In this document: one piece after another, positions 30,530 through 39,203 of the stretch
Numbering within the stretch: position 1 is the stretch's first letter
How the letters are laid out: each line of letters starts with the position of its first letter
Source of the DNA: Paraburkholderia ginsengiterrae
GTDB lineage: Bacteria; Pseudomonadota; Gammaproteobacteria; Burkholderiales; Burkholderiaceae
Length of the DNA stretch: 64,000 bases
Reading direction: 5' to 3'
Assembly: GCF_001645125.1 (NCBI RefSeq)
Contig: NZ_LXKA01000327.1
Location: 1-64,000, forward strand
Notes under the pieces: generated by a model
Told to the model about the DNA's origin: nothing
The model's input: the letters and a program-made list of their open reading frames with translations, nothing else
The model's database searches: none
Translations under genes and position numbers: made by a program

Positions 30530-31948
30530 TCATTCCGACGCTGGCAACGCCGCCGCCGCGTGGAAGAACGCCTGCGCACGAGGTTCGTTAGTGAACGCGA
30601 TGTGGATCCTGATCCACGGGCTCACTTCCATGTTGGGCCGGAAGTAGTTGCCGGGCACGACTGTTACGCCCAGCGGCGCGCCGCACTCCACCAGCCGTTC
30701 CGCATCGTCGACATGCGGCACGCGAGCCCAGACGAATTTCCCGCCTACTGGCTTCTCGAATATTTCCCAGCACGCGTCTTCGAGTGTCTGGATGGTTGAG
30801 CCGAGTGCATCGCGCATGCGCCGGCGCAGACGCTCCAGATACTTGTGGTACGCGCCGCGCTCGAGCATCGATACGGCGACCGCTTCGGCAAAACGCGAAC
30901 CGCCGATGCTCGTCAGCATCTTGATGTCGACCAGATCCTTGATGACCGCGTGGCTCGCCACCACGCAGCCGATGCGCAGCGACGACGACAGCGTTTTCGA
31001 CAGGCCGCCCACGTAGATCACATGTTCGAGCTGATCGAGCGTGGCCAGGCGGTCGGTGACGTCGGTTTGAAAATCGGTGTAGATGTCGTCTTCGATGATC
31101 GAGAAGCCGTGCTCGCGCGCCAGCTGCAACAGGCGAAACGCGACGGGCGGCGCAACCGTGGTCCCGGTCGGATTGTGGAAGACGGTGTTGATGAAAAAGA
31201 GCTTGGGACGGTGCGACTTCAGCTGCTCCTGCATCACGTCGAGGTCCGGACCGTTGCGGGTGCGTGGAATGCCGATCAGCTTCACGCCGTGCAGTTTCAA
31301 GAGGCCGTTCAGGTTGTAGTAGCCGGGGTCTTCGACAAAGATCGTGTCCCCGGCCTTGAGCATGTAGCGCATCAGCAGATCGAACGCCTGGCTGGCGCCG
31401 TTGGTGATCAGGATCTGCGACGGCTCCGCCTGGATTCCCAACTGGCCGATACGGCTCTGCAGATGTTCGCGCAGCCTCAGATTGCCGAGCGGGGTGGCGT
31501 AGTCGACCATGCTCGCGGGGTCGGTGCGCGACACGTGACGGATCGCCTGCGCGATGCCGTCCATATCGCGCCACGATTCCGGAATCGAGCCGCTGCCGAG
31601 CTTGAGCGTTTCGCCCGGGTGATTGAACTGCTGCAGCAGGTGGTCGGATTCGTCCTCGGCGCGACGCGGGTCCGAACTGCCCTGGCACCGCGAGCTGGCC
31701 GGCTGGCGGTCGGTGACATAGAAGCCCGAGCCGTGGCGCGAGTCGACATAGCCAAGCGACACCAGCCGGTCGTAAGCCTCGATCACGGGGAAGCGGCTCA
31801 CGCCGTAATCGGTGGCGAACTGCCGGATCGACGGCAGCTTGGAACCGGGGTGCGCGGCCCGCGAGCGGATCCAGGCCGTGACGCCCGTGACGATCTGCTC
31901 GGTCAGCGGCACGCCGTTGTCCCGGTCGAGCTCGATTTCAAGTTTCAT
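30530..31948 (-). CDS. MocR family GntR/aminotransferase regulator, 472 aa
   Basis: An N-terminal GntR winged helix (about residues 10-80: GSKLPSIRQFATDYGVSRFP and YVDSRHGSGFYV) is joined to a fold-type I aminotransferase domain (about 110-465). The PLP lysine is Lys318 in GGLSKTLSSS, with NPTGT (260) and EDDIYTDF (286) in place. MocR proteins usually control a neighbour and bind PLP or an amino-acid adduct. The divergent DUF2917 gene is the obvious candidate target, with an inverted repeat between the two starts. Confidence 0.9.
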   Translation of the reverse strand: MKLEIELDRDNGVPLTEQIVTGVTAWIRSRAAHPGSKLPSIRQFATDYGVSRFPVIEAYDRLVSLGYVDSRHGSGFYVTDRQPASSRCQGSSDPRRAEDESDHLLQQFNHPGETLKLGSGSIPESWRDMDGIAQAIRHVSRTDPASMVDYATPLGNLRLREHLQSRIGQLGIQAEPSQILITNGASQAFDLLMRYMLKAGDTIFVEDPGYYNLNGLLKLHGVKLIGIPRTRNGPDLDVMQEQLKSHRPKLFFINTVFHNPTGTTVAPPVAFRLLQLAREHGFSIIEDDIYTDFQTDVTDRLATLDQLEHVIYVGGLSKTLSSSLRIGCVVASHAVIKDLVDIKMLTSIGGSRFAEAVAVSMLERGAYHKYLERLRRRMRDALGSTIQTLEDACWEIFEKPVGGKFVWARVPHVDDAERLVECGAPLGVTVVPGNYFRPNMEVSPWIRIHIAFTNEPRAQAFFHAAAALPASE

Positions 31949-32103: not shown

Positions 32104-32403
32104 ATGCGTGAAGTCCGGATATTCGAATTGGAACATGGCGAGCCCGCGACGGCCTGGCGTGTCGCTCGTCCGTCGATCTTCAAGGTCATCTCGGGCGAGA
32201 TCTGGCTGACTGTCGAAGGCGAGGGCGACGATCATTGGCTCGCCACCGGCGAATCGATCGAACTGCCGCGCGGAGCGGTGGCGTGGATCAGCGCGGGGCA
32301 GGCCGGTGCGCGCTTTGCGATGGCGAGCGGGTCTGAGCGGACCTCCTCGGCGCGGCCGGTGCCTATGCTGAACTGGTTGCCGCGCTGGCTGGGTGTGGCC
32401 TGA
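32104..32403 (+). CDS. DUF2917 domain protein, 99 aa
   Basis: A small protein with one cupin-like half domain: IFKVISGEIWLTVEGEGDDH, then LATGESIELPRGAVAWISAG. This matches DUF2917, a family of unknown function common in Burkholderiales and usually next to a MocR regulator. GAAGGAGAAAGGCG precedes the ATG. Regulation by the divergent MocR protein is inferred from position and the inverted repeat. Confidence 0.85.
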   Translation: MREVRIFELEHGEPATAWRVARPSIFKVISGEIWLTVEGEGDDHWLATGESIELPRGAVAWISAGQAGARFAMASGSERTSSARPVPMLNWLPRWLGVA

Positions 32404-32455: not shown

Positions 32456-33697
32456 TTAGTTTGGCCCTGGCGTCTCGTAGTCCCCGATGTAACGCGCGCG
32501 CGGCCGGATCAGCCGGCCGTCGCGCGTCTGTTCCATCGCATGCGCGATCCAGCCAACCACCCGGCCCACAGCGAACAGCGTGAAAGCCGCGCCGGCCGGC
32601 AGACCCAGGGTCCGCTCGATGGCGGCCAGCGCAAAATCCACCGTGGGTTCCGCGCCGGTCGTATCGCGCACCGCTCGCGCCAATGCCAGCACCTCGCCGA
32701 GCGGCGAACGCGCCGGCGCGCAGTCGGCGAGCAGGGCGAGCAGCAACCGCGCGCGCGGGTCGCCCTGCGGATAGAGCGGATGACCGAAGCCCGACAGCAC
32801 CGGCCCTTGTGTGCCGTGTTCGTGCCGCGCGAGGCGGTTCGCCAGATAGCGGTCGAGATCGGGCGCGCGCGACGCCTCATCGAGCAGCGCGGCGATGCGC
32901 ACCGTCTCACCCCCATGGCGCGGCCCGGACAATGCCGCCAGACCGCCCGCCACCGCGCCGAACAGGTGCGTTCCCGTCGAAGTGATACAGCGCACCGTGA
33001 AGGTCGACGCGTTCAACTCGTGGTCCGCGCAGGCCACCAGCGCCGCGCGCAGCAAGCCGGCTTGCTGCCGGTTGCGCACTTGCCACGCTTGAGCCAATTG
33101 CCGGTGCATCGGCTCGTTCGACGGCGCCGCTGAAATCATCGCGGCGGCCAGCAAGCGCATGACGGCGCACGCTGTGTCGAGTTGGGCATCGCGGCCGAGC
33201 GCCCACACCCGGGGCATTTGCGCCGCGGCGGCGGGCAACAGCACGAGCGCGCGATCGAGCGGCGTGCTGTCGCCCCAGAGTTTGAGCCACGCCGCCCACT
33301 GCGCGCCGGCAAACGGCACAGCCGGCGCTTCCGCAAGCCGCCGCGCGCTGCATTCCCACAACAACGCCGCGATGTCTTCGAGCGTCGCACTTTGCGCCAG
33401 TGTCATGGCGTCGTGCCCGCGGTACAGCAGGCGGCCGTCCGCCACCAGCGTGATCGACGATTCGAGCACCGGCACGCCCCAGTCCAGCACCTTCTGCGCG
33501 ACTTTGCCCGCGCGCTTGCCGTCTTCCTTGCGGCGCGCGAGCCGCCGCGCTTCGCCGGCGTCATACAGCCGATGCTTGCCCTGCGCGTCCGGCGACGAAC
33601 TCAGCATGCCGCGGCTCACGTACGCGTAAAGCGTGGGCAAGCTGATGCCGAGCGTGGCGGCGGCTTCGGCGGCGGTTAGTACATTCGAGGCAGGCAT
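32456..33697 (-). CDS. Citrate synthase-like enzyme with N-terminal helix-turn-helix, 413 aa
   Basis: Residues about 5-55 form a MerR-like HTH head: LTAAEAAATLGISLPTLYAY then GKHRLYDAGEARRLARR. From about 70 the chain is a citrate synthase fold. The catalytic set is intact: His261 (SGPRHGG), His306 (GFGHPLYPQGDPRA) and Asp354 (TVDFAL), with ADHELNAST at 224-232. So it may condense an acyl-CoA with an oxo-acid, yet it may also bind DNA. The large domain is shorter than in housekeeping citrate synthase. It is divergent from a CoA-transferase gene with an 18-bp palindrome between. Confidence 0.85.
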   Translation of the reverse strand: MPASNVLTAAEAAATLGISLPTLYAYVSRGMLSSSPDAQGKHRLYDAGEARRLARRKEDGKRAGKVAQKVLDWGVPVLESSITLVADGRLLYRGHDAMTLAQSATLEDIAALLWECSARRLAEAPAVPFAGAQWAAWLKLWGDSTPLDRALVLLPAAAAQMPRVWALGRDAQLDTACAVMRLLAAAMISAAPSNEPMHRQLAQAWQVRNRQQAGLLRAALVACADHELNASTFTVRCITSTGTHLFGAVAGGLAALSGPRHGGETVRIAALLDEASRAPDLDRYLANRLARHEHGTQGPVLSGFGHPLYPQGDPRARLLLALLADCAPARSPLGEVLALARAVRDTTGAEPTVDFALAAIERTLGLPAGAAFTLFAVGRVVGWIAHAMEQTRDGRLIRPRARYIGDYETPGPN

Positions 33698-33719: not shown

Positions 33720-33756
33720 AATCAATATATATTGATTATCATAATCAAGATTGATT
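33720..33756. promoter_or_regulatory. AT-rich overlapping palindromes between citrate synthase-like and CoA-transferase genes
   Basis: AATCAATATATATTGATT (33720-33737) is a perfect 18-bp palindrome. A second, TTGATTA-TCA-TAATCAA, overlaps it at 33732-33748, and another TTGATT half-site is at 33751-33756. The block is far more AT-rich than its surroundings and lies 23-60 bases upstream of the ATG at 33697. Confidence 0.8.
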
Positions 33757-33804
33757 GCAGCGTGGCGGAATTCTAGACTCGGTTCACCTTCTTCCTGTTC
33801 CGCT

Positions 33805-35205
33805 ATGAACGCCATGACGCCCGAACTTGCTCTCAAACATATCTGGACCCTCGCGGAATGCGACCCGACCGCGTTGAGAAACGTCTCGCTGACAGGCGCC
33901 GAGCCAGCTTTGCCGTCGGTTTATCAGGTGGGGAGCCTTGCCTCGGCGACCATCGCAGCGACGGGCCTCGCGGCCGCCGAATACCATCGCTTGCGAACGG
34001 GGCACAGGCAGCACGTCGCGGTGGACATGCGGCGCGCGCTGGCGTCGTTTCGCAGCGAACGCTATTTGCGCATCGACGACGGTCCGCCGCCTGCGCTGCG
34101 CGATCCGGTGACGGGTTTCTACGAGACGCGCGACGGCCGCTGGATTCAACTGCACACGAATTTCCCCCATCATCTTCACGGCGTATTGCAGGTGCTGGAC
34201 TGCGCGAACGATCCCGCGGCAGTGGCCGCGGCGATTCGCGGCTGGGATGGCGCGCGGCTCGATCAGACGCTCGCCGATGCGGGCCTGTGCGCCGCGTTGA
34301 TCCGCGCGCCGCACGAGTGGGCCTCGCTCGAACAGGCGCAGGCGGTGGCGGGCTTGCCGCTGTTGGAGATCGAGCGCATCGGCGACGCGCCGGTCGAACC
34401 GGTGCGCGGGAGCGGCGCGGACCGGCCGCTGGCGGGTGTGCGGGTGCTGGATCTGTCGCGCATCATCGCGGGGCCGGTAGCCGGGCGGGCACTCGCGCAG
34501 CATGGCGCGGAGGTGTTGCTGATCAACGGACCGCATCTGCCGAACATTGCGCCGCTCGTGATCGACAATGGGCGCGGCAAGCGCTCGGCCGTGGTCGATC
34601 TGCGCGACGCGGCCGGGCGCGAAACGTTACAGGGCTTGGCGGGCGGCGCGGATGTGTTTTTGCAAGCGTATCGTCCCGGCGCACTCGCGGCGCGCGGATT
34701 CGGTCCCGAGGAACTGGCGCGGACGCGTCCAGGAATCGTTTATGTGTCGGTCTCCGCCTATGGGCACAAAGGGCCTTGGGCCCAGCGGCGCGGCTTCGAT
34801 AGTCTGGTGCAGTCGGCGAGCGGCATCGCCTTGACCGAGCAGCAGGCCGCGGGATGGGACGGGCCCAAGCATTTGCCGTGTCAGGCGCTGGATCACGCAA
34901 CCGGCTATCTGGCCGCCTTCGGGGCGATGGCCGCCTTGGCGCGGCGGGCGACCGAGGGCGGAAGCTGGCATGTGCGGGTCTCGCTCGCGCAAACGGGCCG
35001 CTGGTTGCAGTCGTTCGGGCAGATTCCCGACGGCTGGACCGCGCCCGACGTCACGCTCGACGAGGTGCGCGATTGCCTTGCCACCGTCGATTCGGAATTT
35101 GGCCGCGTTCTGGGCGTGCAACCGGCTGAAATTCTGGACGTGACGCCCGCTTATTTCGCGCTGCCGCCCAGCCGGGTGGGCGCGCATGAGGCACGCTGGG
35201 TCTGA
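33805..35205 (+). CDS. Family III (CaiB/BaiF) CoA-transferase with rearranged domain order, 466 aa
   Basis: Family III CoA-transferases move CoA between acids through an aspartyl-CoA intermediate; the likely Asp is Asp363 in ALDHATGYLAAFGA. The usual N-terminal start, PLAGVRVLDLSRIIAGPVAG, appears only at residue 208. The first 200 residues look instead like the second half of the family: GHRQHVAVDMRRAL, then GFYETRDGRWIQLHTNFPHH, and APHEWASLEQAQ. The protein thus resembles a permuted or fused form. The ATG at 33805 has only a weak ribosome site. It faces the citrate synthase-like gene across a palindrome, so the two likely act together on CoA esters. Confidence 0.85.
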   Translation: MNAMTPELALKHIWTLAECDPTALRNVSLTGAEPALPSVYQVGSLASATIAATGLAAAEYHRLRTGHRQHVAVDMRRALASFRSERYLRIDDGPPPALRDPVTGFYETRDGRWIQLHTNFPHHLHGVLQVLDCANDPAAVAAAIRGWDGARLDQTLADAGLCAALIRAPHEWASLEQAQAVAGLPLLEIERIGDAPVEPVRGSGADRPLAGVRVLDLSRIIAGPVAGRALAQHGAEVLLINGPHLPNIAPLVIDNGRGKRSAVVDLRDAAGRETLQGLAGGADVFLQAYRPGALAARGFGPEELARTRPGIVYVSVSAYGHKGPWAQRRGFDSLVQSASGIALTEQQAAGWDGPKHLPCQALDHATGYLAAFGAMAALARRATEGGSWHVRVSLAQTGRWLQSFGQIPDGWTAPDVTLDEVRDCLATVDSEFGRVLGVQPAEILDVTPAYFALPPSRVGAHEARWV

Positions 35206-35316: not shown

Positions 35317-36063
35317 CTACTTTCGCAATTCCGCCACGAAGTCGTAGTAGTCGTTGCGGCAGTATGTGTCGGTCAACTCGATCGCGCGCTGATCGGCCGT
35401 GTAGCCCACGCGGGTAATCAGCAGCAGCGCTTCGTTTGGGGCGATGCTCATCTGCTGCGCGATTTCATCGCTCGCGTTCACCGCCCGAAAATGCTGCAGC
35501 GCGCGGACAATCGTCAGGCCGCGGTTCTCCAGGTACGAGTACAACGAATCGCCGATGGCTTGAGGATCGGGAATCACCGCGGCGGGGAAAGTGGAGTTCT
35601 CCACCGCCATCACGATGCCGTCGGCCAGACGCAAGCGCCGCAAGCGCGTTACCGCCGCCGCCGGCGACAAGCCAAGCTGGATCACCTCATCGCGGTTGGC
35701 CGGCACGATCTCGCGCGAAAGCCATTTCGAACTCGGCGTAAAACCGCGCCGCCGCAGCATTTCGCTGAAGCTCGACAGACGCGACAGCGGATCTTCGTAG
35801 CGCGGCGTGATGAAACTGCCCGCGCCCTGAGTGCGCCGGATCAATCGCTGCTCGACGAGCAAGGCAATGGCCTTGCGCGACGTAATGCGCGACACGCCGA
35901 GCGCCTCGGAGAGCACGCGCTCGGAGGGCAGCGCCTCGCCCGCGTTCCAGCGGTTTTCGTGGATGGCGGAGCCGAGCTTGCGTGCAAGTTGCAGATAAAG
36001 CGGCGTGTCGTTTTCCGGGTCCGGGCGCAGATCGCGCCAACGGTCTTCCGAGGCAGAGGTCAT
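35317..36063 (-). CDS. GntR family regulator with UTRA ligand domain, 248 aa
   Basis: The GntR winged helix lies at about residues 20-90: NAGEALPSERVLSEALGVSR, then AIALLVEQRLIRRTQGAGSF. The UTRA domain follows (about 105-240: TPSSKWLSREIVPANRDEVI, ending ELTDTYCRNDYYDFVAEL). This is the HutC/NagR branch, whose ligands are often phosphorylated sugars or amino sugars. The target is unknown; the nearest divergent gene is the aldo/keto reductase, 191 bases away. Start at 36063 is ATG; a GTG nine bases upstream is in frame. Confidence 0.9.
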   Translation of the reverse strand: MTSASEDRWRDLRPDPENDTPLYLQLARKLGSAIHENRWNAGEALPSERVLSEALGVSRITSRKAIALLVEQRLIRRTQGAGSFITPRYEDPLSRLSSFSEMLRRRGFTPSSKWLSREIVPANRDEVIQLGLSPAAAVTRLRRLRLADGIVMAVENSTFPAAVIPDPQAIGDSLYSYLENRGLTIVRALQHFRAVNASDEIAQQMSIAPNEALLLITRVGYTADQRAIELTDTYCRNDYYDFVAELRK

Positions 36064-36254
36064 GGGGCTCACGCGAGAAGGGCAAGCGGCAATTCTATGA
36101 CATCGGCGCGTTACGTTATAGCGGGCTTTTGCCTGGGGGGCGAACGGCCGCCCGTCGAACCGCTAAACTCGCCGCTATGTCTTTCGTGCCATGCGCCGCG
36201 CGTTCGCCCGCGCGGAGTGCATCGCCGACCATTGAGCCACTTCGAGGAGTCAGC

Positions 36255-37941: not shown

Positions 37942-38772
37942 CTAATGCCCGTTTCCTCCGCCGTTGCCACCACCGTTACCGCCGCTACCCTTGCCTCCGT
38001 AGCCGCCGCCGAAGCCTCCGCCAAAGCCTCCGCCGAAACCGCCACCGAAGCCGCCGCCAAACCCACCGCCAAAGCCGCCGCCTTTACCGCCACCAGGGCC
38101 GCTTGGGCCGCCGCTGGAACCGCCGCAGCCGCAGCCGCCGCTGCTGCCGCCACCGCTTGAACCGCCACCGCTAGAACCACCACCGCTAGAACCACCGCCG
38201 CTCGAACCACCGCCGCTAGAACCGCCACCGCTTGAACCACCGCCGCTTGAGCCACCACCGCTAGAACCACCGCCGCTGGAACCACCACCGCTCGATCCGC
38301 CGCCACTGCTTCCACCACTATTGCCCTTGCCGCCCGAGCTACCCGATCCGGCTCCGCCAGCGCCACCAGCAGCGCCACCGGCACTTCCGCCGCTGTTCGA
38401 CCCGCCGCTGTTGCCAGAACTCGCCGCGGCGTTGTTGCCGCTGCCACCGCCAAGACGCGTGCATCCGTTGAAGCTGGAGCCGTTACAGTCGTGCGGGTGA
38501 AAGATTGTGGCCGCGTCGTCGGCAGCAGTCGGCTCGCCGGCCGCCGCGCCCGCGGTCAATCCGTCTTGCGCCGCGCCCTCTTCCTGCGCGATGGGGGCCG
38601 CTGCCTGCGCGGCGCTGGCGGGCAGCGGTGCATCGGCGAGCACAACCCACTTGGGGATGACATCCGTCGATGCCGGATACGCGACCTGAGTGGCGAGCGC
38701 AATCACGCCTGCAGCGATTGCCGTGCTCCGGCTGATCCCAAAGTAGTACTGATTGAATATTCTGGTCCTCAT
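37942..38772 (-). CDS. Exported glycine-repeat protein, 276 aa
   Basis: The first about 35 residues look like a signal peptide (FGISRSTAIAAGVIALATQV). A short unique region follows with two Cys (DCNGSSFNGCTRLGG at about 85-99). The rest is almost only Gly, Ser and Asn: about eleven GGGSS units, then CGCGG, and later six GGGF units before a GKGSGGNGGGNGGGNGH end. No enzyme motif is present; a surface or matrix role is a guess. Start at 38772 has GGGAG before it. DNA coding the repeats is itself a minisatellite. Confidence 0.75.
   Translation of the reverse strand: MRTRIFNQYYFGISRSTAIAAGVIALATQVAYPASTDVIPKWVVLADAPLPASAAQAAAPIAQEEGAAQDGLTAGAAAGEPTAADDAATIFHPHDCNGSSFNGCTRLGGGSGNNAAASSGNSGGSNSGGSAGGAAGGAGGAGSGSSGGKGNSGGSSGGGSSGGGSSGGGSSGGGSSGGGSSGGGSSGGGSSGGGSSGGGSSGGGSSGGGSSGGCGCGGSSGGPSGPGGGKGGGFGGGFGGGFGGGFGGGFGGGFGGGYGGKGSGGNGGGNGGGNGH
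38008..38085. repeat. 12-bp repeats encoding GGGF
   Basis: The unit on the minus strand is GGYGGYGGNTTY, about six copies within the glycine-repeat gene. Codons vary at third positions, so selection acts on the protein as well as the DNA. Confidence 0.8.
38146..38310. repeat. 15-bp tandem repeats encoding GGGSS
   Basis: About eleven units of pattern CCRCCRCCGCTNGAA on the plus strand (GGGSS on the minus strand). They differ by single bases only, which favours slippage and length change between strains. Confidence 0.85.
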
Positions 38773-39203
38773 CGCGTCTCTCCCGAGGGAAAACCGGCAC
38801 CGCGCTGCCGCCATCTCTCACACTGAATCTGCGACAGTTGGCCTATTCGTCCGTGGGTCACGCCGCCCCCGGTTCGTCGCGCCGATGCCGGTCAATCACT
38901 CATTGTTGTCTTCCCGGTTGGGCAGCCGGTGTCTGGCTAAGCGTCTCCTCGCGCTTGCCCGCTTCCTTTCCTTTTGGTGGCGCCATTCATTGCGCCGCGT
39001 ATGTTTGGCTTCGAAAGTCTGACCAGTTCATAGCGATATCCATGCCACTGGTCGCAAAACCTTGCGGCAACGGGCTTCGAACAGGGAGGGGCGATGCGGA
39101 TGCTGAAAAAACACCGCAAAACGTTTCGGCGATGAAACGCACGGTCGTTTTGCCGCGTTAAACAGCGCTATTCGTTACACGAGACGCGGTCCCGCGCGGA
39201 TCC
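38773..39203. other. 431-bp gap upstream of glycine-repeat gene and downstream of ABC operon
   Basis: No gene is supported. The glycine-repeat gene promoter must lie here. I see no clear hairpin terminator for the ABC transporter operon that ends at 39204. Confidence 0.5.

Follow-up and report, generated by a model that had tools for sequence, protein, structure and literature searches.

The 64,000-nucleotide stretch of Paraburkholderia ginsengiterrae DNA analysed here (contig NZ_LXKA01000327.1, positions 1–64,000; hereafter the window) contains, at 32456–33697 on the minus strand, a gene for a 413-amino-acid protein, P0001, in which a helix-turn-helix (HTH) head is joined to a citrate synthase domain; P0001 and its relatives of the same build are referred to below as HTH-CS proteins. 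Divergent from this gene, at 33805–35205 on the plus strand, lies its probable target, a gene for a family III CoA-transferase of the CaiB type (CoA_transf_3, 4.6e-59) whose presumed catalytic Asp363 is conserved (46 of 46 aligned), and the region between the two genes holds a candidate operator. P0001 is very likely a regulator, and comparison across genomes argues with good confidence for a one-component transcription factor that has the citrate synthase fold as its sensor and would control caiB through the site TCAANNTTGAT-N7-ATCAA.

Architecture of P0001 and conservation of the locus

The head of P0001 (residues 6–55; 33533–33682, minus strand) is a MerR/BldC-like winged HTH according to Pfam, AlphaFold2 and Foldseek, and the citrate synthase domain (residues 73–400; 32498–33481, minus strand) is defined by a full-length PF00285 match together with its fold. 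The initial annotation had placed a MerR-like HTH at residues 5–55 on a citrate synthase and had named structure prediction as the way in which the HTH nature of the head might be questioned; the predicted structure bears out the winged HTH, with the head at approximately residues 6–55. For the AlphaFold2 models, which are of monomers, the closest head folds found by Foldseek were BldC on DNA (6ama), SoxR (2zhh) and NmlR on DNA (5d90), and the folds nearest to the synthase domain were 2-methylcitrate and citrate synthases. The head of P0001 itself scores under the Pfam cut-offs; at E ≤ 0.001, MerR-type head models were found in 54 of 54 rows for HTH_17, 45 of 54 for MerR_1 and 40 of 54 for MerR. 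The helix residues T22, L23, Y24, Y26, V27, S28 and R29 are invariant across the 54-row HTH-CS set A2, and residues of the head rank among the most conserved of HTH-CS proteins. P0001 reaches no citrate synthase cut-off in NCBIfam, the best model being PRK12350 (164.4 versus 332 bits), with the other synthase models listed also below theirs. Databases name most HTH-CS proteins citrate synthases, and in plasmid records 17 of 19 relatives are called "citrate synthase family protein".

Close orthologues of P0001 (73–92% identity) are present in 27 of 35 congeners. Among the 28 orthologue loci, the window's own included, a divergent caiB is found in 27 and is missing in L028.

A recurrent candidate operator upstream of HTH-CS genes

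The intergenic region between caiB and the HTH-CS gene is strikingly conserved among close orthologues. A conserved footprint, AATCAATATATATTGATTATCATAATCAAGATTGATT (33720–33756), has close variants in the Paraburkholderia orthologues and includes an 18-bp palindrome at 33720–33737. This is where the initial annotation had reported a palindrome before the start of the gene; the palindrome stands, and it overlaps a wider recurrent site, the operator core TCAANNTTGAT-N7-ATCAA, which occurs exactly at 33732–33754 on the minus strand, with 0.13 matches expected in the window at up to two mismatches. The gaps from unrelated bacteria have in common a core of approximately RTCAAYNTTGATT-N5-ATCAAYATAT, read toward the HTH-CS gene.

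The operator was scored as TCAANNTTGAT-N6/7-ATCAA within 300 nt upstream of the HTH-CS gene, in sets of loci that overlap to the extent that some loci are the same gene (L028 and L074, for example). In the named-record loci, which are the best 80 of at least 586 confirmed relatives identified through peptide patterns in which the recognition helix was included, the operator was exact in 65 and within two mismatches in 76, with N7 the better fit in 77. At the same threshold it was absent from all 1838 windows taken elsewhere in these loci as controls and from all 240 sequences made by first-order resampling. In a draw of 398 Pseudomonadota genomes, for which matches at E ≤ 1e-70 were accepted and four candidates were scored per genome, 48 genomes carried HTH-CS (49 genes), approximately one in eight species sampled, and the operator was exact in 42 of the 49 loci, had one mismatch in three and was not near the gene in four. 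All 45 near sites are oriented toward the HTH-CS gene and start 13–81 nt before the ATG. Of the four loci without a near site, L179 carries the operator where its operon begins, whereas 7.3 kb around each of L184, L185 and L191 contained no copy. The family also occurs in Chloroflexi and Acidobacteriota, and the operator is exact, with N6, in Chloroflexi and Blastocatellia loci (L121 and L130). Comparison thus establishes the operator as a recurrent feature of the HTH-CS family, and P0001 itself would be expected to bind it. The claim of the initial annotation that the head binds DNA is strongly supported by the same comparison, through the recurrent upstream site, the empty control windows and the likeness of the head to folds solved on DNA.

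The genes that face HTH-CS vary. Among the named-record loci the divergent partner is CaiB in 45 of 80, a synthase in 31 (two of these being PrpC behind prpB) and none of these kinds in four, and in the Pseudomonadota draw it is CaiB in 5 of 49, a CitA-type citrate synthase in 31, PrpC in three and none of these kinds in 10, where "CitA-type" denotes the best tblastn query. The operator accompanies HTH-CS next to caiB, next to a CitA-type citrate synthase gene and next to prpB-prpC alike. In Pseudoxanthomonas (L118), the only prpBC-type locus compared with family models, HTH-CS is faced by prpB (525 bits, cut-off 353) and prpC (723 bits, cut-off 550). The operator is likewise still present in L028 (the same gene as L055), the one orthologue without caiB. 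In a group of Burkholderiales paralogues, HTH-CS is the last gene of an operon of the form SDR-transporter(-glyoxalase-like)-HTH-CS, with gene kinds assigned by eye, and in the operon-end loci (L040, L042, L044–L048 and L179) the operator lies at the far promoter and not directly before HTH-CS; it occurs there twice, as an exact copy and as a copy carrying a single mismatch. In the Paraburkholderia paralogues L039, L041 and L043, HTH-CS stands beside transporter and 2-hydroxyacid-dehydrogenase-like genes (again by eye), with an exact operator before HTH-CS.

The window's genome has a single exact copy and one more site with one mismatch (C134:92383), and a wide regulon in this genome is unsupported, there being only one exact operator. 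A set of 200 Burkholderiales genomes (matches at E ≤ 1e-40, nine candidates per genome) yielded 17 exact N7 sites, spread over 16 genomes. HTH-CS was counted there as 18 matches in 14 genomes that start at profile position 1–3; six of the exact sites fall in such genomes (6 of 14), each directly upstream of the HTH-CS gene, and the other 11 fall in 10 of the 186 genomes not counted as HTH-CS-bearing.

These observations bear on whether P0001 could be an ordinary citrate or methylcitrate synthase isozyme in which the head has become vestigial and the palindrome is a mere promoter feature. The prevailing database name and the intact catalytic triad described below are in keeping with such an isozyme; against it stand the head residues, which are among the most conserved, and the occurrence of the same operator in distant bacteria, beside different genes and at the far promoter of the operon-end loci. 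We regard this explanation as highly improbable.

The direction of control was considered from the promoter geometry. A putative caiB promoter consists of a -35 element, TTGATT (33751–33756, plus strand), which overlaps the operator core, and a -10 element, TAGACT (33774–33779, plus strand), 17 bp from it. This predicted pair, TTGAT[TC]-17-TAGACT, faces caiB in 22 of the 28 orthologue gaps (L001 and L007–L027, all of at least 77% identity), and the six more distant orthologues, L028–L033, lack it; five of these six have caiB. Because the operator overlaps the predicted caiB -35 and ends 34 nt before the start codon of P0001, repression of caiB and of its own gene is the likely default, and P0001 probably represses caiB. 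An activator, in which bound P0001 would recruit RNA polymerase to the caiB promoter, is the alternative. The overlap of the operator with the predicted -35 and its reach upstream resemble the arrangement of some activators, and MerR-like heads often belong to activators. MerR-type promoters, however, hold the operator inside an over-long spacer of 19–20 bp that is needed for unwinding, whereas the predicted caiB spacer is 17 bp where it is recognised, and the operator also lies close before P0001's own start codon. Activation appears the less likely of the two, and blocking of both promoters, as the simplest reading of this arrangement, makes a repressor moderately likelier.

Pocket residues, triad loss and spread of the family

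The three catalytic residues of citrate synthase that had been listed in the initial annotation are all found in P0001: a catalytic-type His261 (codon 32915–32917), an oxo-acid-binding-type His306 (32780–32782) and a catalytic-type Asp354 (32636–32638), all on the minus strand. They align with their counterparts in four ordinary (methyl)citrate synthases that this genome also encodes. In citrate synthase chemistry, conserved Arg and His residues bind the oxo acid, and residues of the His261/Asp354 type act on the acyl-CoA. The 80 named-record relatives show no variation at His261, Asp354, Arg315, Arg379 or Arg398, and all but one have His306, which gives a full triad in 79 of 80; in the Pseudomonadota draw the triad is full in 44 of 49, His306 is different or unaligned in three and Arg379 is kept in 48. 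For the substrate sensing that had been suggested in the initial annotation, these invariant residues support a ligand pocket of the citrate synthase kind, and together with the targets they make it rather probable that the ligand of P0001 is an oxo acid or tricarboxylate, or an acyl-CoA. Residue 307, which is Pro in the PrpC proteins of this genome, was considered as a mark of methylcitrate specificity and rejected, because no one residue is fixed there (P in 48 of 80, and A or V in prpBC-linked members).

A few members have lost the triad. The Burkholderiales pocket alignment comprises 50 rows for 47 distinct genes (L053, L054 and L055 being the same as L034, L035 and L028, respectively), with L002–L006 left out as not HTH-bearing. 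In it, L050, L051 and L052 have T, T and I at residue 261 and A, A and E at residue 354, with His306, Arg315, Arg379 and Arg398 kept. In the Pseudomonadota draw, three of the 49 (L183, L184 and L185) have lost the catalytic residues at both 261 and 354. By contrast, every HTH-CS row in every set, those of the triad-loss members included, retains the two arginines of the oxo-acid-pocket type, Arg315 and Arg398. Three of the six triad-loss members found have kept the operator (exact in L051 and L183, one mismatch in L052) and no operator was found for L050, L184 and L185; in L184 and L185 the recognition helix is altered as well. Loss of the catalytic residues alongside retention of the oxo-acid set and, in L051, L052 and L183, of the operator is the pattern that a sensor would be expected to show.

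The triad is intact in most members, which leaves room for catalysis. P0001 could then be a bifunctional trigger enzyme, at once a regulator and a catalyst for the condensation of an acyl-CoA with an oxo acid, and the promoter would respond directly to flux or substrate load. His261 and Asp354 in all 80 relatives, the triad counts given above, a fold nearest to 2-methylcitrate and citrate synthases and the prpB-prpC pair divergent from HTH-CS in Pseudoxanthomonas all favour such an enzyme, and the retention of the operator in three of the six triad-loss members speaks against it, as would the failure of Caulobacter citC, described below, to complement a gltA deletion if citC is, as we guess, the HTH-bearing gene of its pair. 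On balance we consider the trigger enzyme a minority possibility, and it is doubtful that P0001 is still an enzyme.

In a tree of 70 chosen rows, all 47 HTH-CS rows lie on one side of a 100/100 branch, for which reason the fusion of head and synthase looks like a single event, probably one that happened once; long branches were flagged by the tree program, and because heads were trimmed at a fixed length, long-headed rows may still include some head sequence. The birth of each HTH-CS gene from its adjacent synthase was rejected, as the tree groups all 47 together and no local duplication was seen. The stand-alone CitA-type partners (L083, L103, L111, L121 and others) carry Glu at the position of the catalytic Asp in all 27 non-PrpC rows that could be read, two further rows being gaps; in this alignment the partner synthases of L084 and L109 run off their contigs, and that of L092 aligns only in part. 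Elsewhere in the window's own genome (L006, C372:195739–196458), another citrate-synthase-family gene, seen as a split match, lies beside another CaiB homologue.

Several other genes surround the locus. The HTH-CS gene is adjoined by a MocR/PdxR-like GntR-aminotransferase regulator (30530–31948, minus strand), which places two HTH-enzyme chimeras side by side, and by a DUF2917 protein (32104–32403, plus strand); beside HTH-CS in the orthologue loci, MocR is found in 27 of 28 (not in L032) and DUF2917 in 28 of 28. Just past caiB and convergent with it is a GntR-UTRA regulator (35317–36072, minus strand), and at 37942–38814 (minus strand) lies a gene whose product has a hydrophobic N-terminal part and then consists mostly of GGGSS and GGGFG repeats.

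Proposed regulation and comparison with known systems

We propose that P0001 would bind TCAANNTTGAT-N7-ATCAA in the promoter region common to its own gene and divergent caiB, and that the default effect would be repression of both. Binding of a 2-oxo acid or tricarboxylate, and/or an acyl-CoA, would close the synthase fold, as in the enzymes, and closure would move the two heads of a P0001 dimer and change DNA binding, with the result that production of the CoA-transferase would follow the appearance of its acyl-CoA or acid metabolite. A more far-reaching possibility, which we put forward as speculative and improbable as a whole, is that the family consists of working (methyl)citrate-type synthases that ride on DNA by their own head, read their substrates through the open-closed movement and control a Glu-for-Asp sister synthase, the methylcitrate cycle or a CoA-transferase through one cross-phylum operator.

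Proteins listed in databases as citrate synthases appear instead to be transcription factors whose site can be predicted and whose target lies nearby. This would change the annotation of a gene in about one-eighth of the Pseudomonadota species sampled (48 of 398), and it suggests what may regulate many CitA-type synthases, prpBC in Pseudoxanthomonas and a CaiB-type CoA-transferase. The family may also serve as a test case for a central-metabolism enzyme turned sensor, having members at both ends, with the triad intact and with the triad lost. With the site, the target and the residues for mutation specified, the idea of a regulator lends itself to direct testing.

In our searches of mainly open-access literature, no paper was recognised as describing an HTH-citrate synthase regulator family. 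BldC and the MerR-family regulators share the winged HTH head fold with P0001, but BldC is not known to have a sensor domain, and dimerisation in MerR proteins typically runs through a C-terminal coiled coil, whereas the second part of P0001 is a citrate synthase. The MocR/PdxR/GabR regulators also use a whole enzyme fold as the sensor behind an HTH; they differ in having a GntR head and an aminotransferase body, and belong to other Pfam families throughout. The CitA-type "citrate synthase 2" proteins (PRK12350; PDB 6wgy, 8gmk and others) have the same fold as P0001 and are the divergent partner of many HTH-CS genes, but they have no HTH, and in the readable non-PrpC partners Glu replaces the catalytic Asp. 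Caulobacter crescentus has two synthase genes of which we presume, as a guess, that citC bears an HTH. According to PMC7083601, citB and citC adjoin and are both synthase-like, and citB complements an Escherichia coli gltA deletion while citC does not, which is what a CitA-type/HTH-CS pair would do. For the "citrate synthase-like" SCO5831 of Streptomyces coelicolor, the excerpts of PMC9739823 and PMC8981147 state nothing on a head, and the Collimonas "citrate synthase family protein" in PMC12542777 is an expression-table entry that gave no lead.

PrpR resembles HTH-CS in its local control of prpBC, and in Pseudoxanthomonas (L118) HTH-CS occupies the place facing prpB. PrpR is sigma54-dependent, unlike P0001, in whose Pfam result a sigma54 activation domain is absent at E ≤ 1. 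The PrpR of Xanthomonas citri, as described in PMC12153269, is a repressor that is unresponsive to 2-methylcitrate, binds GTTGCAA-N2-TTGCAAC and is 45% similar to Salmonella PrpR; it was considered as an already described HTH-CS member and rejected on account of its different motif and its likening to the Salmonella protein.

The closest working analogue that we found in print is BzdR (PMC3602430), in which an HTH-XRE domain is joined to a shikimate-kinase-like domain and the ligand is benzoyl-CoA. P0001 shows the marks of a one-component regulator of the BzdR type, namely an HTH head on an enzyme fold, a recurrent operator and a divergent target gene. The two are alike in carrying an N-terminal HTH on an enzyme-derived domain, in having a catabolic target and in a CoA-thioester ligand, known for BzdR and possible for P0001, and they are unlike in HTH class and in enzyme fold. 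For BzdR, the paper holds the loss of enzyme activity to be essential, whereas in HTH-CS proteins the triad is intact in most members.
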